A DNA stretch of 64,000 nt from Flexivirga endophytica (GTDB lineage Bacteria; Actinomycetota; Actinomycetes; Actinomycetales; Dermatophilaceae), in assembly GCF_014640635.1 (NCBI RefSeq), contig NZ_BMHI01000002.1, forward strand, positions 310,001-374,000, read 5' to 3'. A model generated the notes under the pieces. The model made no database searches, was not told the DNA's origin, and saw only the letters and a program-made list of their open reading frames with translations. Each line of letters opens with the position of its first letter. The stretch's first letter is position 1. Both the position numbers and the translations under genes were made by a program. Below are positions 1,631 through 61,692 of the stretch, piece by piece.

Positions 1631-3022
1631 ATGGCTGCTGAGACTCCCGTGACCTTGCTCATCCTCGGCGCCGGTGGTGACCTCACCCACCGGTTGTTGC
1701 TGCCCGGTGTCGGCAGCCTGCTCAAGATCGAGCCATCCCGGAAGGTGCAGATCGTCGGTGCCGATCGCGCGGACCTGACTGCGACGCAATGGAAGAAACG
1801 GGTCGAGGAGTCGTTCGCCACTGTCCCCGTGCCTGCTCGCCCCGCGCGTTCCGCGCTCGCCAAGACCCGTTACCAGCAGACCGACCTGCTCGACACCGAG
1901 CAGCTGGCCGACCTGCTGGCCGGCTGCTCCGGACCACTGGTCATCTACTTCGCGCTACCGCCGGCCGTGTCGATGAAGGTGTGCAGACTGCTGGAGGACA
2001 TCGACCTTCCCGACGACACTCGGCTGGCACTGGAGAAGCCATTCGGTGGTGACGAGAAGTCGGCGCGCACGTTCAACGCGCAGTTGCACAAGCTGGTCCC
2101 GGAGGATCACATCTTCCGCGTCGACCACTTCCTGGGTCGCTCCACCGTGCTCAATCTCATCGGGTTGCGCTTCGCGAACCGCATCCTGCAACCGATCTGG
2201 AGCGCCGAGCACATCGAGCGCGTCGAGATCATCTACGACGAGGACCTCGCCCTCGAAGGACGCGCCGGCTACTACGATCGGGCCGGAGCCCTGCGCGACA
2301 TGTTGCAGTCACACCTGTTGCAGATCCTCGGCGTCTTCGCGATGGAGTCGATCGCCGACCTGTCCGCCCAGGAGGTGCAGGACCAGAAGGCCCAGGTGCT
2401 GCGCTCCACCTACCTGTGGGGCGGCAGCCCGAAGAGGTCCAGCAAGCGTGCCCGCTACACCGCCGGACAGATCGGCCGTCGCAAGATCCCGGCGTACACG
2501 CGGGAGAAGGGTGTCGACCCCTCGCGCGAGACCGAGACGCTCGCGCAGGTGCAGGTAGAGGTGCGCAACAACCGGTGGGCGGGCATCCCGTTCACGTTGC
2601 GCAGCGGCAAGGCGCTCGGCACCCCGCGCAAGCAGGTGATCGCCTACTTCCGGCCGGTTCCGCACCTGCCCAACGGTTTCGACAACACGGCAGCACCCGA
2701 CAAGCTGATCATCGACCTCAAGCCGGGCGCCGTGTCGTTCGTGCTGACGATGAATGCCGAAGGCAGCCCGATGGACCTGGAGCAGAAGGAGCTGCGCGCC
2801 GAACTCGCACCCGGCTGGATGCTCCCGTACGGCGAGGTGCTGCGCGAGGTCCTGGACGGGGACAACCTGCTGTCCGTCCGCGGCGACGCAGCCGAATCCT
2901 GTTGGCGCATCATGGATCCGGTGCTCAAGGCATGGAAGGCCGGCCGCGTGCCGATGGAGGCGTACCCCGCCGGCTCGACCGGCCCGAAGGGTTGGTTGCC
3001 CGACGACTCCCTCGTCCGTTAG
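1631..3022 (+). CDS. Glucose-6-phosphate dehydrogenase paralogue (Zwf family)
   Basis: This 463-residue protein has the Zwf architecture. The nucleotide-binding motif GAGGDLTHRLLLP is at the N-terminus (usual form GASGDLxxRKLxP). EKPFGGD and the active-site segment RVDHFLGR lie near one third of the length, followed by the C-terminal G6PD domain with IPFTLRSGKAL. The family oxidises glucose 6-phosphate with NADP+ in the pentose phosphate pathway. The substrate-binding Lys of the usual DHYLGK is Arg here, and there is no tal/tkt/gnd neighbour. This may therefore be a specialised paralogue rather than the housekeeping enzyme. ATG 1631 is preferred; ATG 1619 is possible. It overlaps the next, convergent gene by 4 bases. 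Confidence 0.85.
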   Translation: MAAETPVTLLILGAGGDLTHRLLLPGVGSLLKIEPSRKVQIVGADRADLTATQWKKRVEESFATVPVPARPARSALAKTRYQQTDLLDTEQLADLLAGCSGPLVIYFALPPAVSMKVCRLLEDIDLPDDTRLALEKPFGGDEKSARTFNAQLHKLVPEDHIFRVDHFLGRSTVLNLIGLRFANRILQPIWSAEHIERVEIIYDEDLALEGRAGYYDRAGALRDMLQSHLLQILGVFAMESIADLSAQEVQDQKAQVLRSTYLWGGSPKRSSKRARYTAGQIGRRKIPAYTREKGVDPSRETETLAQVQVEVRNNRWAGIPFTLRSGKALGTPRKQVIAYFRPVPHLPNGFDNTAAPDKLIIDLKPGAVSFVLTMNAEGSPMDLEQKELRAELAPGWMLPYGEVLREVLDGDNLLSVRGDAAESCWRIMDPVLKAWKAGRVPMEAYPAGSTGPKGWLPDDSLVR

Positions 3023-3723
3023 GACGACACGGCGAGCCAGGTGAGCAGCGTCGAGGCGAGCGTGTAGCGCTCGCCGCCGCGCTCCTCTTCGACCTCGGCC
3101 GGGTGCAGCTGGCTGTCGGCGACGGTGAAGTCGACGAAGACGTCGTCGAGCAGCCGGCGTGCGGTGTCGATCGACAGGTCGCTCTCCAGCAACGCCGGGC
3201 GCCGGGTGCCGTCGGCGCGGATTTCGAAACGATCGGCGATGATCCCCAGCGCCACGACGCCGCCCGGCCGGGTCGCAATCCTGGTTCGCTGCAACAGGTT
3301 TCGTACCGCCTCCGGTCGCGGCAGGTGCTCGATCGCGGAGAACGCGAAGACCAGGTCGGCAGGGGCCGCGAAATCGAAGTCGTCGAGATCTGCCGTGACC
3401 GTGTGCAACACCGTCGAGACGCCGGCGGGCACCTCGGTCTCGAGTTGCGCGAGCGCGGACGGCAACAGGTCTACGGCATACACCGTGGAGCCGGCGGGCA
3501 GTCGCTCCAGCATCGGCATCGTATGGCGCCCGATGCCGGCGCCCAGGTCGTAGGCGGTCACCGCCCGGTCGGAGGGCAGCAGCGCGAGAGCCGCGGTCAG
3601 CAGCGGGTGCGGATTGGCCAGCCAGGTCCCGGCATCGCCGAGGTCGGCCGAGGCGTAGAGCTCCTCGTGATAGCGGACCGTCTCGTCACGGGCACGCTCG
3701 AAATCGTCGGGCTGGTCGGTCAT
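3019..3723 (-). CDS. Class I SAM-dependent methyltransferase
   Basis: This 234-residue protein contains the SAM-binding Rossmann motifs. Motif I is AYDLGAGIGRHTMPML around residues 55-70. The acidic end of beta 2 is VYAVDLLPSAL, motif III is DLVFAFSAIEHLPRP, and the post-motif is RPGGVVALGI. It looks like a small-molecule methyltransferase of the UbiE/Methyltransf_25 type, but nothing shows the substrate. ATG at 3723 starts the homologous part; an upstream in-frame extension (to 3777) has no support. The gene is convergent with the Zwf paralogue and divergent from the DUF4190 gene. Confidence 0.8.
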   Translation of the reverse strand: MTDQPDDFERARDETVRYHEELYASADLGDAGTWLANPHPLLTAALALLPSDRAVTAYDLGAGIGRHTMPMLERLPAGSTVYAVDLLPSALAQLETEVPAGVSTVLHTVTADLDDFDFAAPADLVFAFSAIEHLPRPEAVRNLLQRTRIATRPGGVVALGIIADRFEIRADGTRRPALLESDLSIDTARRLLDDVFVDFTVADSQLHPAEVEEERGGERYTLASTLLTWLAVSS

Positions 3724-6470: not shown

Positions 6471-8189
6471 ATGCCGACCTACCAACCACCGATCACGCCG
6501 GTCGCGGACAGCCTGTGGCTGTCCGCAATCATCGCGGCGCTGCCGTTGCTGAGCATCTTCCTGACCCTCGGACTGCTGCGCTGGAAGGCCCATTGGGCCG
6601 GCCTGACCGGCCTGGGGATCGCGCTCGTCGTGGCGATCGTCGCGTTCAAGATGCCGGTGGATCTCGCGCTGCTGGCAGGCACCGAAGGGGCGGCATACGG
6701 CCTGGTCCCGATCATGTGGATCGTCTTCGCGGCGATCGTGCTCTACCAGGTCACCGTCGTGAGCGGCCGGTTCGAGGACCTGCGCGCAGCCTTCCACCTG
6801 GTGTCCAACGATCCACGGGTGCAGGCGATCATCATCGCGTTCTGCTTCGGTGCGCTGCTGGAGGCACTGGCCGGTTTCGGTGCGCCCGTGGCGATCACCG
6901 GGGTCATGCTCATCGCGGTCGGCTTCTCGCCGTTGCGTGCGGCGGCCGTCGCCCTGCTGGCCAACACCGCGCCCGTCGCGTTCGGGGCCATCGGCATCCC
7001 GATCATCACCGCCGGCAACCTGACGCACATCGACTACAACATCGTCGGCGCGTATGTCGGACACCAGACCCCCGTGCTCGCACTCGTCGTCCCGCTCATG
7101 CTCGTCTTCCTGGTCGACGGTCGTCGCGGCGTTCGCCAGACCTGGCCCATCGCGCTCGTGGTCGGTGCCGCCTTCGCAGTGGCGCAGTGGGCGTCCGCGA
7201 CCTACATCTCGGTCGAGCTGACCGACGTCATCGCCTCCCTGGTCGGTCTCGCCGCCGCCGTCGTCATGCTCCGCTTCTGGCAGCCGCAGGGGCGCGAAGA
7301 GGCCAACGAGTCGATCGCCCAGGCCCGCAAGCTCGAATTCGCAACTGTCGGTGGGGGATCCGGCGATGCGGGCACCGCTGTCGCGGACGACGACATCGCG
7401 TTCACCTCGGCGGAGGAGATGGACCGTCGGGCCGAGGCGCTCACCCCCGGCCGCATCGGTATGGCGCTGTTGCCCTACCTACTGGTCATCGCGGTCTTCG
7501 CGGCGGCCAAGCTCATCGACCCGATCAAGAACGCCCTCGCCGACACCGACGTCAAGATCGGTTGGCCCGGGCTGGACGGCCACGTCCTCTCCGGGACCGG
7601 CAAGGTCAGCGCTACCACCGTCTACACGCTGCCCTGGCTGTCCTCGCCCGGCTCGCTGCTGTTGATCTGCTCGGTCATCGTCGCGCTGGTCTACAAGGTC
7701 GGACCGGCCCAGTGGGGGCGTGAGTTCGTGGAGACCGGGGTCAAGCTCCGGTTCGCGTTCCTGACCGTCGCGTCCGTGCTCGGGCTCGCCTACGTGATGA
7801 ACCTGTCCGGCCAGACCGTGACGATCGGCACCTGGATCGCCGGCACCGGCGCCGCCTTCGCGTTCCTGTCGCCCATCCTGGGCTGGCTCGGCACCGCGGT
7901 CACCGGCTCCGACACCAGCTCCAACGCGCTCTTCGCGACGCTGCAGCAGACCGCCGGGCACAAGGCCGGCATCGATCCGACCCTGCTGGTCGCGGGCAAC
8001 TCCGCGGGTGGTGTGGTCGGAAAGATGATCAGCCCGCAGAACCTCACGATCGCCGCCGTCGCGGTCGGCCTCGTCGGGCGGGAGTCGGACATCTTCCGCA
8101 AGGTCATCCTCTGGTCCATCGGACTGCTGGCGATCGTCTGCCTGCTGGTCGGCCTGCAGTCGACGGTCCTGTCCTGGATGCTGCCGTGA
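6471..8189 (+). CDS. lctP: L-lactate permease (LctP family)
   Basis: This 572-residue polytopic membrane protein has about a dozen hydrophobic helices and family segments such as GALLEALAGFGAPVAITG and the C-terminal TGSDTSSNALF and SAGGVVGKMISPQNL. These are characteristic of the lactate/glycolate:proton symporters of TC 2.A.14. A soluble loop around residues 275-320 is rich in acidic and Ala residues. ATG 6471 was chosen because GGAG at 6458-6461 serves it. A TTG at 6456 is in frame but would leave no ribosome site. Its stop overlaps the GTG of lutA, so transporter and oxidase are coupled. Confidence 0.92.
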   Translation: MPTYQPPITPVADSLWLSAIIAALPLLSIFLTLGLLRWKAHWAGLTGLGIALVVAIVAFKMPVDLALLAGTEGAAYGLVPIMWIVFAAIVLYQVTVVSGRFEDLRAAFHLVSNDPRVQAIIIAFCFGALLEALAGFGAPVAITGVMLIAVGFSPLRAAAVALLANTAPVAFGAIGIPIITAGNLTHIDYNIVGAYVGHQTPVLALVVPLMLVFLVDGRRGVRQTWPIALVVGAAFAVAQWASATYISVELTDVIASLVGLAAAVVMLRFWQPQGREEANESIAQARKLEFATVGGGSGDAGTAVADDDIAFTSAEEMDRRAEALTPGRIGMALLPYLLVIAVFAAAKLIDPIKNALADTDVKIGWPGLDGHVLSGTGKVSATTVYTLPWLSSPGSLLLICSVIVALVYKVGPAQWGREFVETGVKLRFAFLTVASVLGLAYVMNLSGQTVTIGTWIAGTGAAFAFLSPILGWLGTAVTGSDTSSNALFATLQQTAGHKAGIDPTLLVAGNSAGGVVGKMISPQNLTIAAVAVGLVGRESDIFRKVILWSIGLLAIVCLLVGLQSTVLSWMLP

Positions 8190-8938
8190 CCGCCGCGCCA
8201 CGGGTCGCGCTCTTCGCCACCTGCTTCAACGACACGATGTGGCCGGACACGCCACGTGCGACCGTGAGCCTGCTGGAGCGGCTCGGCGTCACCGTCGAGT
8301 TCCCGATGGCGCAGACCTGCTGTGGTCAGATGTTCACCAACACCGGGTATGTCGACGAGGCGGTGCCGCTGGTCCGGGCGTTCGTCGACGTGTTCGGTTC
8401 GTATGACGCCGTCGTCGCGCCCTCCGGGTCGTGCACCGGGTCGGTCCGCGAGCAGCACCAGTGGATCGCCGAGCGGTCGGGTGACAGCGGCCTGGCCCGG
8501 GAGGTCGAGCAGCTCACGCCACGTGTCCACGAACTGTCGGAATATCTCGTCGACGTGCTCGGGGTCGTCGACGTCGGCGCCTACTTCCCGCACCGGGTGA
8601 CCTATCACCCGACCTGTCACTCGCTGCGCATGCTGCGTGTCGGTGACCGGCCGCAACAGTTGCTGCGCGCGGTCCGCGGCATCGACCTCGTCGAGCTGCC
8701 GAGCGCGACCGAGTGCTGCGGGTTCGGTGGGACCTTCGCGATGAAGAACGCCGACATCTCCGTCGCGATGGGTTCGGACAAGGCCCGGCACATCCGGGAG
8801 ACCGGTGCCGAGGTCGTCGTGGCCGGTGACAACTCGTGCCTGGCCCACATCGGCGGTCTGCTGGACCGCCAGCGGGCCGGCGTGCGGTCCCTGCACCTGG
8901 CCCAGATCCTGGCATCGACCGAGGAGGATCCCGCATGA
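8186..8938 (+). CDS. lutA: LutA, lactate oxidase complex (Fe-S)-binding subunit
   Basis: This 250-residue protein has two CCG domains. The cysteine motifs are TCCGQMFTNTG near residue 46 and ECCGFGGTFAMKN near residue 178, each with an upstream partner Cys (CFNDTMWP and the YHPTCHSLR segment). This is the LutA/YkgE architecture. LutA, LutB and LutC together oxidise L-lactate to pyruvate, passing electrons to the respiratory chain. GTG start at 8186 overlaps the permease stop (GTGA) and the 3' end overlaps lutB (ATGA). Confidence 0.92.
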   Translation: MTAAPRVALFATCFNDTMWPDTPRATVSLLERLGVTVEFPMAQTCCGQMFTNTGYVDEAVPLVRAFVDVFGSYDAVVAPSGSCTGSVREQHQWIAERSGDSGLAREVEQLTPRVHELSEYLVDVLGVVDVGAYFPHRVTYHPTCHSLRMLRVGDRPQQLLRAVRGIDLVELPSATECCGFGGTFAMKNADISVAMGSDKARHIRETGAEVVVAGDNSCLAHIGGLLDRQRAGVRSLHLAQILASTEEDPA

Positions 8939-10491
8939 AGAAAGCTGCCCGTTCCACGGCACCCGAGCGAAACCCCGTCGGCATCACCACACCGACATAC
9001 CTCGGCATGCCAAAGTTCCCGAAGCTGGCCGCACCCGAGCTGCGCAACCCGGTGCTGCGGCACAACCTGCAAATGGCGACGCACACCATCCGGGACAAGC
9101 GCGCCCAGGTCGTCGGCGAGGTCGACGACTGGGAGGCGCTGCGGGTCGACGGTGCGCGCAGCAAGGACGCGGCGCTGAACAACCTCGACGAGCACCTGGA
9201 GGAGTTGGAACGCAACCTGCAGAAGGCCGGTGCGACCGTGCACTGGGCGCGCGACGCCGAGGAGGCCTGCTCCATCGTTGTCGAACTTGTCCAGGAATCC
9301 CTCGGGGCCCCCGCGAAGTATTCGGAGGAGCGCAGCGGGGGAGAAACTTCGTGGGGTGGGGGTGAGGTCGTGAAGGTCAAGTCGATGGCCACCCAGGAGA
9401 TCGAGCTCAACGAGGCACTCGAGGCGGCGGGCATCAGCGCCTGGGAGACCGACCTCGCGGAGCTCATCGTGCAGCTCGGCCACGATCGGCCCTCGCACAT
9501 CCTGGTGCCAGCAATTCACCGCAACCGCAGTCAGATTCGCGAGATCTTCGACCGCGAGATGGGCAAGGTGGGCCGGCCGGCGCCGGACGGTATGACGGAC
9601 GAGCCGGCACAGTTGGCCGAGGCGGCCCGGCAGCACCTGCGGGAGAAGTTCCTGCGCGCCAGGGTCGCGATCTCCGGCGCGAACTTCGCGGTGGCCGATA
9701 CCGGAACGCTGGTCGTGCTGGAGTCGGAGGGCAACGGCCGGATGTGCCTGACCCTGCCCGAGACCCTGATCAGTGTCGTCGGCATCGAGAAGGTCGTGCC
9801 CACCTGGGACGACCTGGGCACCTTCATGCAGTTGCTGCCACGGTCCAGCACGGGGGAGCGGATGAACCCCTACACGACGATGTGGACCGGCGCCACGCCC
9901 GACGACGGCCCGCAGGACGTGCACGTCGTGTTGTTGGACAACGGCCGCACCCGGGTGTTGGAGGACGAACTCGGCAGGCAGGCGCTGCGCTGCATCCGGT
10001 GCTCGGCGTGCCTGAACGTCTGCCCGGTCTACGAGCGCGCGGGAGGGCACGCCTACGGCTCGGTCTACCCAGGACCGATCGGCGCGGTGCTCACCCCGCA
10101 GCTGCGGGGCACCGCGAGCCCCATCGACGAGTCGCTGCCCTATGCCTCCAGCCTGTGCGGCGCCTGCTTCGACGCGTGCCCGGTGCGGATCGACATACCG
10201 CGGATGCTGGTCGAGCTGCGCAGCCAGGTCGTCGACCAGCACCGCGGCGGCGTGCCGTCGGCCGAGGCGGCCGGCATGCGCGCCGCGTCCTGGGTCTTCG
10301 GCAACCACAAGCGGCTGGAGGGCGTGCAGGCCGGCGCCGCAGCCGCGAGCCGGCTGTTCGGCAAGCGGACGTCGATCAGCCAGCTGCCCTGGCCCGCATC
10401 CGCCTGGACCCAGGCACGCAACGCACCCACACCCCCGAAGGAGTCGTTCCGGTCATGGTGGCGACGGACCCACGAGGAACCACGGTCATGA
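8935..10491 (+). CDS. lutB: LutB, lactate oxidase complex iron-sulphur subunit, with an extra in-frame segment
   Basis: This 518-residue protein has the LutB/YkgF architecture: an N-terminal LUD domain and a C-terminal ferredoxin-like domain with CIRCSACLNVCPVY and CGACFDACPVRI for two 4Fe-4S clusters. The family sequence that normally runs directly into the VKSKSM-type motif is interrupted at residues about 124-144. There, a Gly/Glu/Ser-rich stretch is encoded by a palindromic repeat also found at 61636. The reading frame is kept and both cluster motifs are intact, so the protein is probably functional. ATG 8935 overlaps the lutA stop. Confidence 0.9.
   Translation: MKKAARSTAPERNPVGITTPTYLGMPKFPKLAAPELRNPVLRHNLQMATHTIRDKRAQVVGEVDDWEALRVDGARSKDAALNNLDEHLEELERNLQKAGATVHWARDAEEACSIVVELVQESLGAPAKYSEERSGGETSWGGGEVVKVKSMATQEIELNEALEAAGISAWETDLAELIVQLGHDRPSHILVPAIHRNRSQIREIFDREMGKVGRPAPDGMTDEPAQLAEAARQHLREKFLRARVAISGANFAVADTGTLVVLESEGNGRMCLTLPETLISVVGIEKVVPTWDDLGTFMQLLPRSSTGERMNPYTTMWTGATPDDGPQDVHVVLLDNGRTRVLEDELGRQALRCIRCSACLNVCPVYERAGGHAYGSVYPGPIGAVLTPQLRGTASPIDESLPYASSLCGACFDACPVRIDIPRMLVELRSQVVDQHRGGVPSAEAAGMRAASWVFGNHKRLEGVQAGAAAASRLFGKRTSISQLPWPASAWTQARNAPTPPKESFRSWWRRTHEEPRS
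9309..9366. repeat. Palindromic repeat inserted in frame in lutB
   Basis: The arm CCCCGCGAAGT (9309-9319) pairs with ACTTCGTGGGG (9346-9356) through a purine-rich spacer, with one G-T wobble. A second copy sharing CCCCGCGAAGTAT and the following GGAGCG/AGCGG/GGGTG blocks lies in the intergenic region at 61636-61692. The copy in lutB is translated as about 21 extra residues at a position where family members have none. Confidence 0.6.
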
Positions 10492-61615: not shown

Positions 61616-61635
61616 GGCATCAACCTAGCTGGGGT

Positions 61636-61692
61636 CCCCGCGAAGTATCGCCGGGGGAGCGGAGCGGCGGAGGTGAACTCCGGGGGGGGTGG
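61636..61692. repeat. Second copy of the CCCCGCGAAGT palindromic repeat
   Basis: CCCCGCGAAGTAT (61636-61648) is identical to the repeat in lutB. The following GGGGGAGCGGAGCGG and CTCCGGGGGGGGTGG blocks match the other copy with scattered changes. The 3' arm is less complementary than in lutB. The predicted GTG start of the next gene lies inside it. Confidence 0.55.

Follow-up and report, generated by a model that had tools for sequence, protein, structure and literature searches.

A dispersed actinobacterial palindrome, inserted in frame in lutB, that anchors at stop codons and forms micro-ORFs at operon junctions

The insert in lutB is, with a probability of about 0.7, one copy of a dispersed actinobacterial palindrome that spreads without stopping ribosomes. 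About a hundred copies are present in this genome, their hairpin structure is backed by covariation, and they lie in frame inside genes, beside stop codons and at operon junctions, where the element can be read as a complete small ORF overlapping both neighbours. The original prediction described the coding insertion and overlooked the commonest habit of the element, namely its anchoring at stop codons together with the relay ORFs formed there.

The window analyzed here is a stretch of 64,000 nucleotides (G000:C2:310001-374000) from a genome of 4.72 Mb in 13 contigs, and its features described below all lie on the forward strand. The insert carrier, lutB (8935..10491), encodes a LUD domain and 4Fe-4S protein (LUD_dom, 154.1 bits; TIGR00273, the LutB/LldF family, 431.7 bits, below the cut-off of 444.8) and follows an ORF for a cysteine-rich, lutA-like CCG domain protein (8186..8938; Pfam CCG, 119 bits), whose stop codon overlaps the lutB start in the ATGA read at 8935-8938. 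Within lutB, the covariance model R1 recognizes a 60-nt element at 9301..9360 (87.4 bits, model positions 1-60) that reads in frame as LGAPAKYSEERSGGETSWGG, residues 123-142 of LutB. The element is assembled from a short outer stem, CTC at 9301..9303 facing GGG at 9358-9360 with one G-T pair, as assigned from flank covariation at positions 2 and 3 in 74 copies; a main stem evident in the sequence, with left arm CCCCGCGAAGT at 9309..9319 and right arm ACTTCGTGGGG at 9346..9356, the latter also backed by the pairing count over copies; a bulged A at 9320; an inner stem of TTC (9321..9323) and GAA (9343-9345), the length of which varies jointly with that of its partner in other copies; and a purine-rich loop at 9324..9342. 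Both arms lie where the original prediction placed them and, as it held, leave the frame unbroken, the reading frame from 8935 to 10491 being open throughout the two of them. The predicted span of 9309-9366 is a few bases off that of the full element.

Comparison of LVQESLGAPAKYSEERSGGETSWGGGEVVKVKSM in this LutB with LVRAKGVDEVVKVKSM in typical orthologues gives a net gain of about 18 residues, so that the predicted insertion is real and its proposed size of about 21 residues is not upheld. That other LutB proteins do without it was borne out when orthologues were aligned for its presence or absence, as the insert residues occur in none of the 109 other loci compared (the set comprises 110 loci, one being the gene itself and at least two being duplicate entries of one gene). 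Likewise, the element model detects nothing in the LutB loops of loci L027-L106 and L108-L136, the sole weak match among the latter (18.5 bits, in L126) lying outside lutB. Some orthologues carry short, unrelated extensions at the same loop (e.g. L126, L127, L130 and L132), indicating that changes of length are tolerated in this loop; the same extra residues are what favours natural length variation of LutB, and not mobile insertion, as the origin of the insert. We consider that origin very improbable, and it is contradicted by the genome-wide DNA matches of the insert: the lutB element is up to 98-100% identical over 55-58 nt to many other sites in the same genome, and the loops of other LutB genes hold no copy of it. 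The exact sequence of lutB before insertion is not recoverable from its nearest orthologues, which are about 73% identical. In the structural model of LutB, built from 39 sequences with a mean pLDDT of 73.1, the insert falls in a low-confidence loop (pLDDT 47 over residues 131-140) that is preceded by a helix (108-124) and followed by a strand (144-147). It is probably a loop on the protein surface that LutB tolerates and that takes no part in catalysis.

A second copy in the window, at 61628..61690 (R1 46.8 bits, E 2.1e-8), corresponds to the relative predicted near 61636; it is real and no gene is called across it, and its right arm has decayed. Searching the window with one arm alone gave 7 matches at one mismatch or fewer against 3.2 expected, which is weak evidence, the folding energy of the lutB copy is unremarkable (z -1.07), and six single-copy folds ranged from z -0.18 to -2.12 with none strongly standing out. 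Since arm-alone matches and single-copy folding energies are weak, the case for a repeat family rests on copy number and covariation. No Rfam family matched within the window at gathering score.

Further copies, which the original prediction had called for, are plentiful. The exact two-arm pattern matched the genome 29 times in forward and 31 times in reverse orientation, corresponding to 57 two-arm places once three perfect palindromes counted on both strands are allowed for, and the reversed-pattern control gave no match. A profile search over 78 stretches around copies (446 kb) returned 137 hits that resolve to 94 sites; these sites are a subset of the copies, a further one at G000:C1:162200 lying outside the studied set. 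An alignment of 43 copies from this genome and its relatives yielded the consensus nnCGGGGTCCCCGCGAAGTATCCGGAGGAGCGnAGCGGGGGAGGAACTTCGTGGGGTGnn, with a layout of an 11-bp stem, a bulged A (A in 63 of 65 parsed copies, 9 of 74 not being parseable), an inner stem of 2-5 bp, a purine-rich loop of about 19-20 nt and a return arm. In these 43 copies, 93.6% of 720 cells are paired against 87.3% after shuffling, and 61 two-sided changes were counted against 23.7, a value reached in none of 500 shuffles. The main stem (helix 2) is paired in 97.8% of cells, a one-base shift of the partner lowers pairing to at most 50%, and the inner stem occurs among copies as TC/GA, TTC/GAA, TTTC/GAAA and TCC/GGA. The outer stem, paired in 74.4% of cells on recount in the 43 copies, is supported across 74 copies at flank position 2 (51 paired, 21.2 expected) and position 3 (40 paired, 19.2 expected), while pairing at flank positions 1 and 4-8 is not significantly above shuffles. 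Of the 68 unique copies, 61 are stop-free in all six frames, against 9.7% of shuffles; the copies share descent and are not independent, for this count as for the phase count below, and stop-freeness is no stand-alone proof. The loops, in the window (9324-9342) as in other copies, are purine-rich and nearly mirror-symmetric and fall into three classes, GGAGGAGCGnAGCGGGGGAG, GGGGGAGCGnAGCGGAGGAG and GGAGCGAGGTACGAGCGGAG.

Intragenic copies were called where the frame is open through the element and the flanks are coding-like on both sides, which holds for 14 of the 94 sites, 13 besides LutB. The carriers are IleS (three units, 42 residues), MurG, MurB, a ThrS, LutB, a QueA-like protein, an Lhr-like helicase, a Tet/OtrA-like GTPase, a trans-aconitate methyltransferase, an alpha/beta hydrolase, a PknB-type kinase, a DhaM-PtsI fusion, an IspD fusion and a maltokinase-GlgB fusion. 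All 14 match known families in an NCBIfam scan, several below the curated cut-off and the alpha/beta hydrolase with general matches only. The copy in the Tet/OtrA-like ribosomal-protection GTPase lies in L220 of this genome (gene at 1749-3551, minus strand), and that protein scores below the resistance-family cut-offs. Every frame of the element is used among the 14 carriers, three sense and three antisense. Eleven of the 14 copies lie on the strand of their gene, which alone gives p 0.057 (9 of 12 in a 12-copy set, p 0.15); set against the 10 of 48 sense copies between co-directional genes, the sense share inside genes is clearly higher (Fisher p 1.4e-4).

Aligned with between one and six relatives for each gene (G001-G005 and G036, with G022 for LutB), the orthologues of the carriers lack the insert except for MurG and MurB in G001, where it sits at the same site. 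This recurrence in a separately assembled species contradicts an assembly artefact for MurB and MurG, and an artefact, which can be proposed because repeats may mislead assembly, is the least probable of the explanations weighed here, with a negligible share of our confidence. The insertion sites in PknB, DhaM, IspD and Mak-GlgB are variable linkers, and other extra residues occur at the insert sites of IleS in G002 and G003, IspD in G002 and GlgB in G003 and G004, a few of them element-like (EERSGG). The IleS loop that holds three units in this genome carries different, partly element-like insertions in G002 and G003 (L241, L242). In the best structure match of MurB, 5jzx, the alignment gap exactly spans the insert (query 283 to 303), the IleS insert falls in an unaligned stretch, and that of MurG falls mostly in gaps. 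Among 63 further sites from relatives (15 each from G001-G004 and one each from G008, G014 and G022), four pass the in-frame test, in HrpA (G004), an acyl-CoA dehydrogenase-like protein (G002), and MurG and a WS/DGAT-like acyltransferase (G001). In the shared MurB and MurG inserts, third positions are kept at 38 of 40 identical residues, the flanks keeping 377 of 562 (Fisher p 6e-5), so these copies look constrained, or homogenized, at the DNA level.

Stop codons are where the element most often sits. With gene context taken from a simple codon-usage gene caller, the 94 sites divide into 48 between co-directional genes (38 antisense and 10 sense), 13 convergent, 9 divergent and 24 inside genes, several of these last being gene ends. 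On the antisense side, 38 of the 94 sites have the stop codon of a called gene 0-7 nt ahead of the first C of CCCCACGAAGT; this set overlaps, and differs from, the 38 antisense co-directional ones. Stops are absent at 8-18 nt (0 of 94) and occur at 19-59 nt in 8 of 94; the commonest spacing between stop and element is 3 nt (15 sites), and all three stop codons are used. The sense-side control gives a stop at 0-7 nt in 1 of 94.

Such sharp and one-sided spacing agrees with a rival in which the element serves the 3' ends of genes as a functional RNA or DNA hairpin (an mRNA stabilizer, a stalling or termination signal, or something REP-like), with relays and coding inserts as side effects of a dense genome. 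We regard this as a possible account that falls somewhat short of even odds. Besides the 38 of 94 against 1 of 94, it gains from the covarying stem, the third-position conservation of the inherited intragenic copies and the ribosome stalling reported, in the relevant passage of PMC12306157, for E. coli REPs up to 15 nt from a stop codon. Against it, folding of three copies showed an A-C mismatch, and lower stability, in the strand expected to be transcribed at stops.

The operon junctions, which bear on the same rival, have an architecture of their own. The next start codon lies exactly 2 nt past the element at ten sites, and at these an entire small ORF can be read from the antisense strand. 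In MSTPRSSSPASLLRILRGDPA, for instance, the ATG shares an ATGA with the upstream stop and the TGA shares an ATGA with the downstream start; at junctions these micro-ORFs are 20-22 residues long. When 157 sites were tested (the 94 of this genome and the 63 of relatives), a coding stop lay nearby in 68, of which 44 have no close coding start, and thus no relay, and 24 have one. Both overlaps (NTGA, RTGA) are present in 19 of these 24 junctions, and the other 5 have just one. Within these 19, the micro-ORF is in phase and its frame open in 15 (13 single copies and 2 compound) and not in the other 4, with a p of 6e-5 for phase that assumes an independence only partly true, as some insertions may be common to G003 and G004. 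The four off-phase junctions consist of two- or three-unit arrays, which give chained, ATGA-overlapping ORFs. Phase is kept at each of the stop-to-start lengths observed, 58, 61 and 64 nt. The 44 of 68 stop-adjacent sites without a close start are as expected of a 3'-end hairpin, which leaves unexplained that 13 of 13 single-copy double-overlap junctions are in phase and that the arrays are chained through ATGA.

By NCBIfam, the junction neighbours include RbfA, TruB, thymidylate synthase, dihydrofolate reductase and parts of a cystine-type ABC system; the gene preceding a response regulator matched no NCBIfam family. Several of these junctions exist elsewhere with a plain ATGA and no element, before truB (G001, G002), the response regulator (G001-G004) and the ABC ATPase (G002). 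Upstream of folA, mini-ORFs of 5, 8 and 10 residues are found in G001, G002 and G004, one of 29 including the element in G003, and one of 41 in this genome. The rbfA-truB junction of G003 and G004 (L366, L369) has a three-residue ATGA-ATGA mini-ORF and no element, so that tiny relays may exist independently of the element. The thyA-folA junction has the form ATGA-mini-ORF-ATGA, with differing lengths, in all five genomes of the genus (L360-L363 region). The thyA-folA mini-ORF of G004, MSAPQIFSPA, looks like a shortened remnant of the element.

The element reaches well beyond this species. DNA similarity gave a match in 17 of 58 genomes, this one included; G052 matches the lutB flank of the query only and G033 just 21 nt, and the better matches come from 14 relatives, all of family f1. 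A strict pattern recovered the element in 7 of 296 genomes of the class and the covariance model, under strict filters, in 24 of 197, both counts including this genome. Genus g94 of family f45 is rich in copies (G100, 16; G188, 24; G208, 8; G227, 8). Eleven genomes had an examinable locus, six of g94, three of f32, one of f27 and one of f1, and in 10 of the 11 the best copy sits at the stop codon of an open frame of at least 60 codons (offset -2 to +1), as it does in 9 of the 10 genomes from the three families other than our own. The 3'-end rival draws on this as well, as these copies too begin right at a stop codon. Since GC-rich DNA often holds long open frames, the sense-side control is important here, and it gave 0 of 11. 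A clean relay is formed by 4 of the 11 best copies. In G161, of another family, a diverged copy at about 1501-1551 of L397 makes a relay ORF, VNHPTKLLAALTTPRGPR, in a ribosomal-protein operon, flanked by an S17-like gene recognized by eye and rplN (1550-1915, 185 bits). Across genomes the stem is kept and the loops differ widely, the presence of the inserts varies among the species of one genus, and copy number is uneven.

The many near-identical copies at unrelated sites, polymorphic within a genus and unevenly numbered, are also what one would expect of purely selfish, non-autonomous DNA moved by some transposase, its positions set only by the removal of harmful insertions. We hold this to be unlikely, at rather under one chance in two. 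Purging alone does not obviously give a sharp, one-sided spacing of 0-7 nt, and inherited intragenic copies are more conserved than the silent sites flanking them. Moreover, a Y1/RAYT transposase (PF01797) was found in none of 19 genomes including this one, with control genomes positive in 5 of 14, and target site duplications were not enriched, direct flank repeats of at least 5 occurring in 10 of 74 copies against 8.9 expected. A duplication of ATGA at junctions is possible.

Under the favoured reading, a palindrome that spreads without stopping ribosomes, selection would have removed the copies that break translation, and the survivors would be in-frame loop insertions, as in LutB, or insertions at stop codons and ATGA overlaps. 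After a stop the element would be silent or regulatory, and at ATGA junctions terminating ribosomes could restart on the micro-ORF and then pass to the next gene. Weighing against this reading are the negative results for a transposase partner (PF01797) and for target duplications, the ordinary folding energies of single copies, the sense bias of intragenic copies, which falls short of significance when taken alone, and the many stop-adjacent sites that lack a close start or one of the two overlaps. A more ambitious version, in which we place slightly less than half our confidence, is that of a class-wide, translation-transparent palindrome, readable from either strand in any frame, that would colonize stops and ATGA junctions as a relay cistron and set operon coupling (rbfA-truB, thyA-folA, rpsQ-rplN), lengthening essential proteins as a by-product.

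Coding palindromes have been known mainly from Rickettsia and other Gram-negative bacteria, and relay repeats from the mycobacteria. An element that combines the two, and does so in essential genes and core operons, offers a natural experiment on the entry of repeats into proteins and on the passage of ribosomes between the genes of an operon. The polymorphism of the inserts within one genus allows filled alleles to be set directly against empty ones.

The likeness to Rickettsia palindromic elements (RPEs) proposed in the original prediction is supported as an analogy. Like RPEs and the intragenic REPs of Di Nocera 2013, the element is a small palindrome lying in frame in unrelated conserved genes, here 14 ORFs whose orthologues in the relatives compared lack the insert outside MurG and MurB of G001. 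It differs in belonging to another phylum and in having the stop codon as its commonest site, the resemblance lying in the way of working, and it encodes no conserved peptide of the RPE kind, all six frames being used. The prediction that coding insertion had not been described in actinobacteria fares well in part: Di Nocera 2013 (PMC3733652) mentions REP-like sequences in M. tuberculosis, RepRanger (PMC12306157) tabulates predicted REPs for three Actinomycetota genomes, the relevant passages of both are silent on coding insertions, and the word "actinobacteria" is absent from the main text of PMC3733652. In-frame REPs outside Rickettsia are nevertheless already published, since PMC3733652 reports them from several species, many inserts encoding 20 to 30 residues, and a passage of a MITE review (PMC10969869) calls in-frame MITE fusions not unusual and RPEs an extreme case. 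Among the matches listed by searches of open-licence PMC papers, no description of the element itself appears. From MITEs it is set apart by target site duplications at the level of expectation. With the GTAG REPs, whose ends supply stop codons in the account given by PMC3733652, it shares dispersed hairpins near gene ends, some intragenic and some supplying stop codons, and it differs in having no unpaired GTAG tag (the consensus begins nnCGGGGTCCCCGCGAAGT...) and no accompanying Y1 (RAYT) gene in 19 genomes. The CGTC repeats described in the same passages have no transposase, and have a stem of 8-9 bp and a loop of 4-5 nt in place of the 11-bp stem, bulge, inner stem and loop of about 19-20 nt seen here. 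E. coli REPs, in the passage of PMC12306157 that concerns them, likewise place a hairpin within 15 nt of the stop codon. The present element is longer, bulged, one-sided and mostly stop-free, and is thereby translatable. The MIRUs of mycobacteria, for which the 1997 work of Supply et al. reportedly gave DTGA as target, are not known to have dyad symmetry. By description, they resemble the element in forming a small ORF that overlaps the stop of one neighbour and the start of the other (here 15 of 19 junctions directly and 4 through chained arrays), and are distinguished from it by its covarying hairpin and its intragenic insertions. In the passage of a 2025 review that treats them (PMC12548453), MIRUs insert at start codons and provide a coupled ORF at -4 nt spacing. 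Sharing one trait with each of these systems and fitting none in full, the element joins coding insertion of the RPE kind to relay insertion of the MIRU kind.
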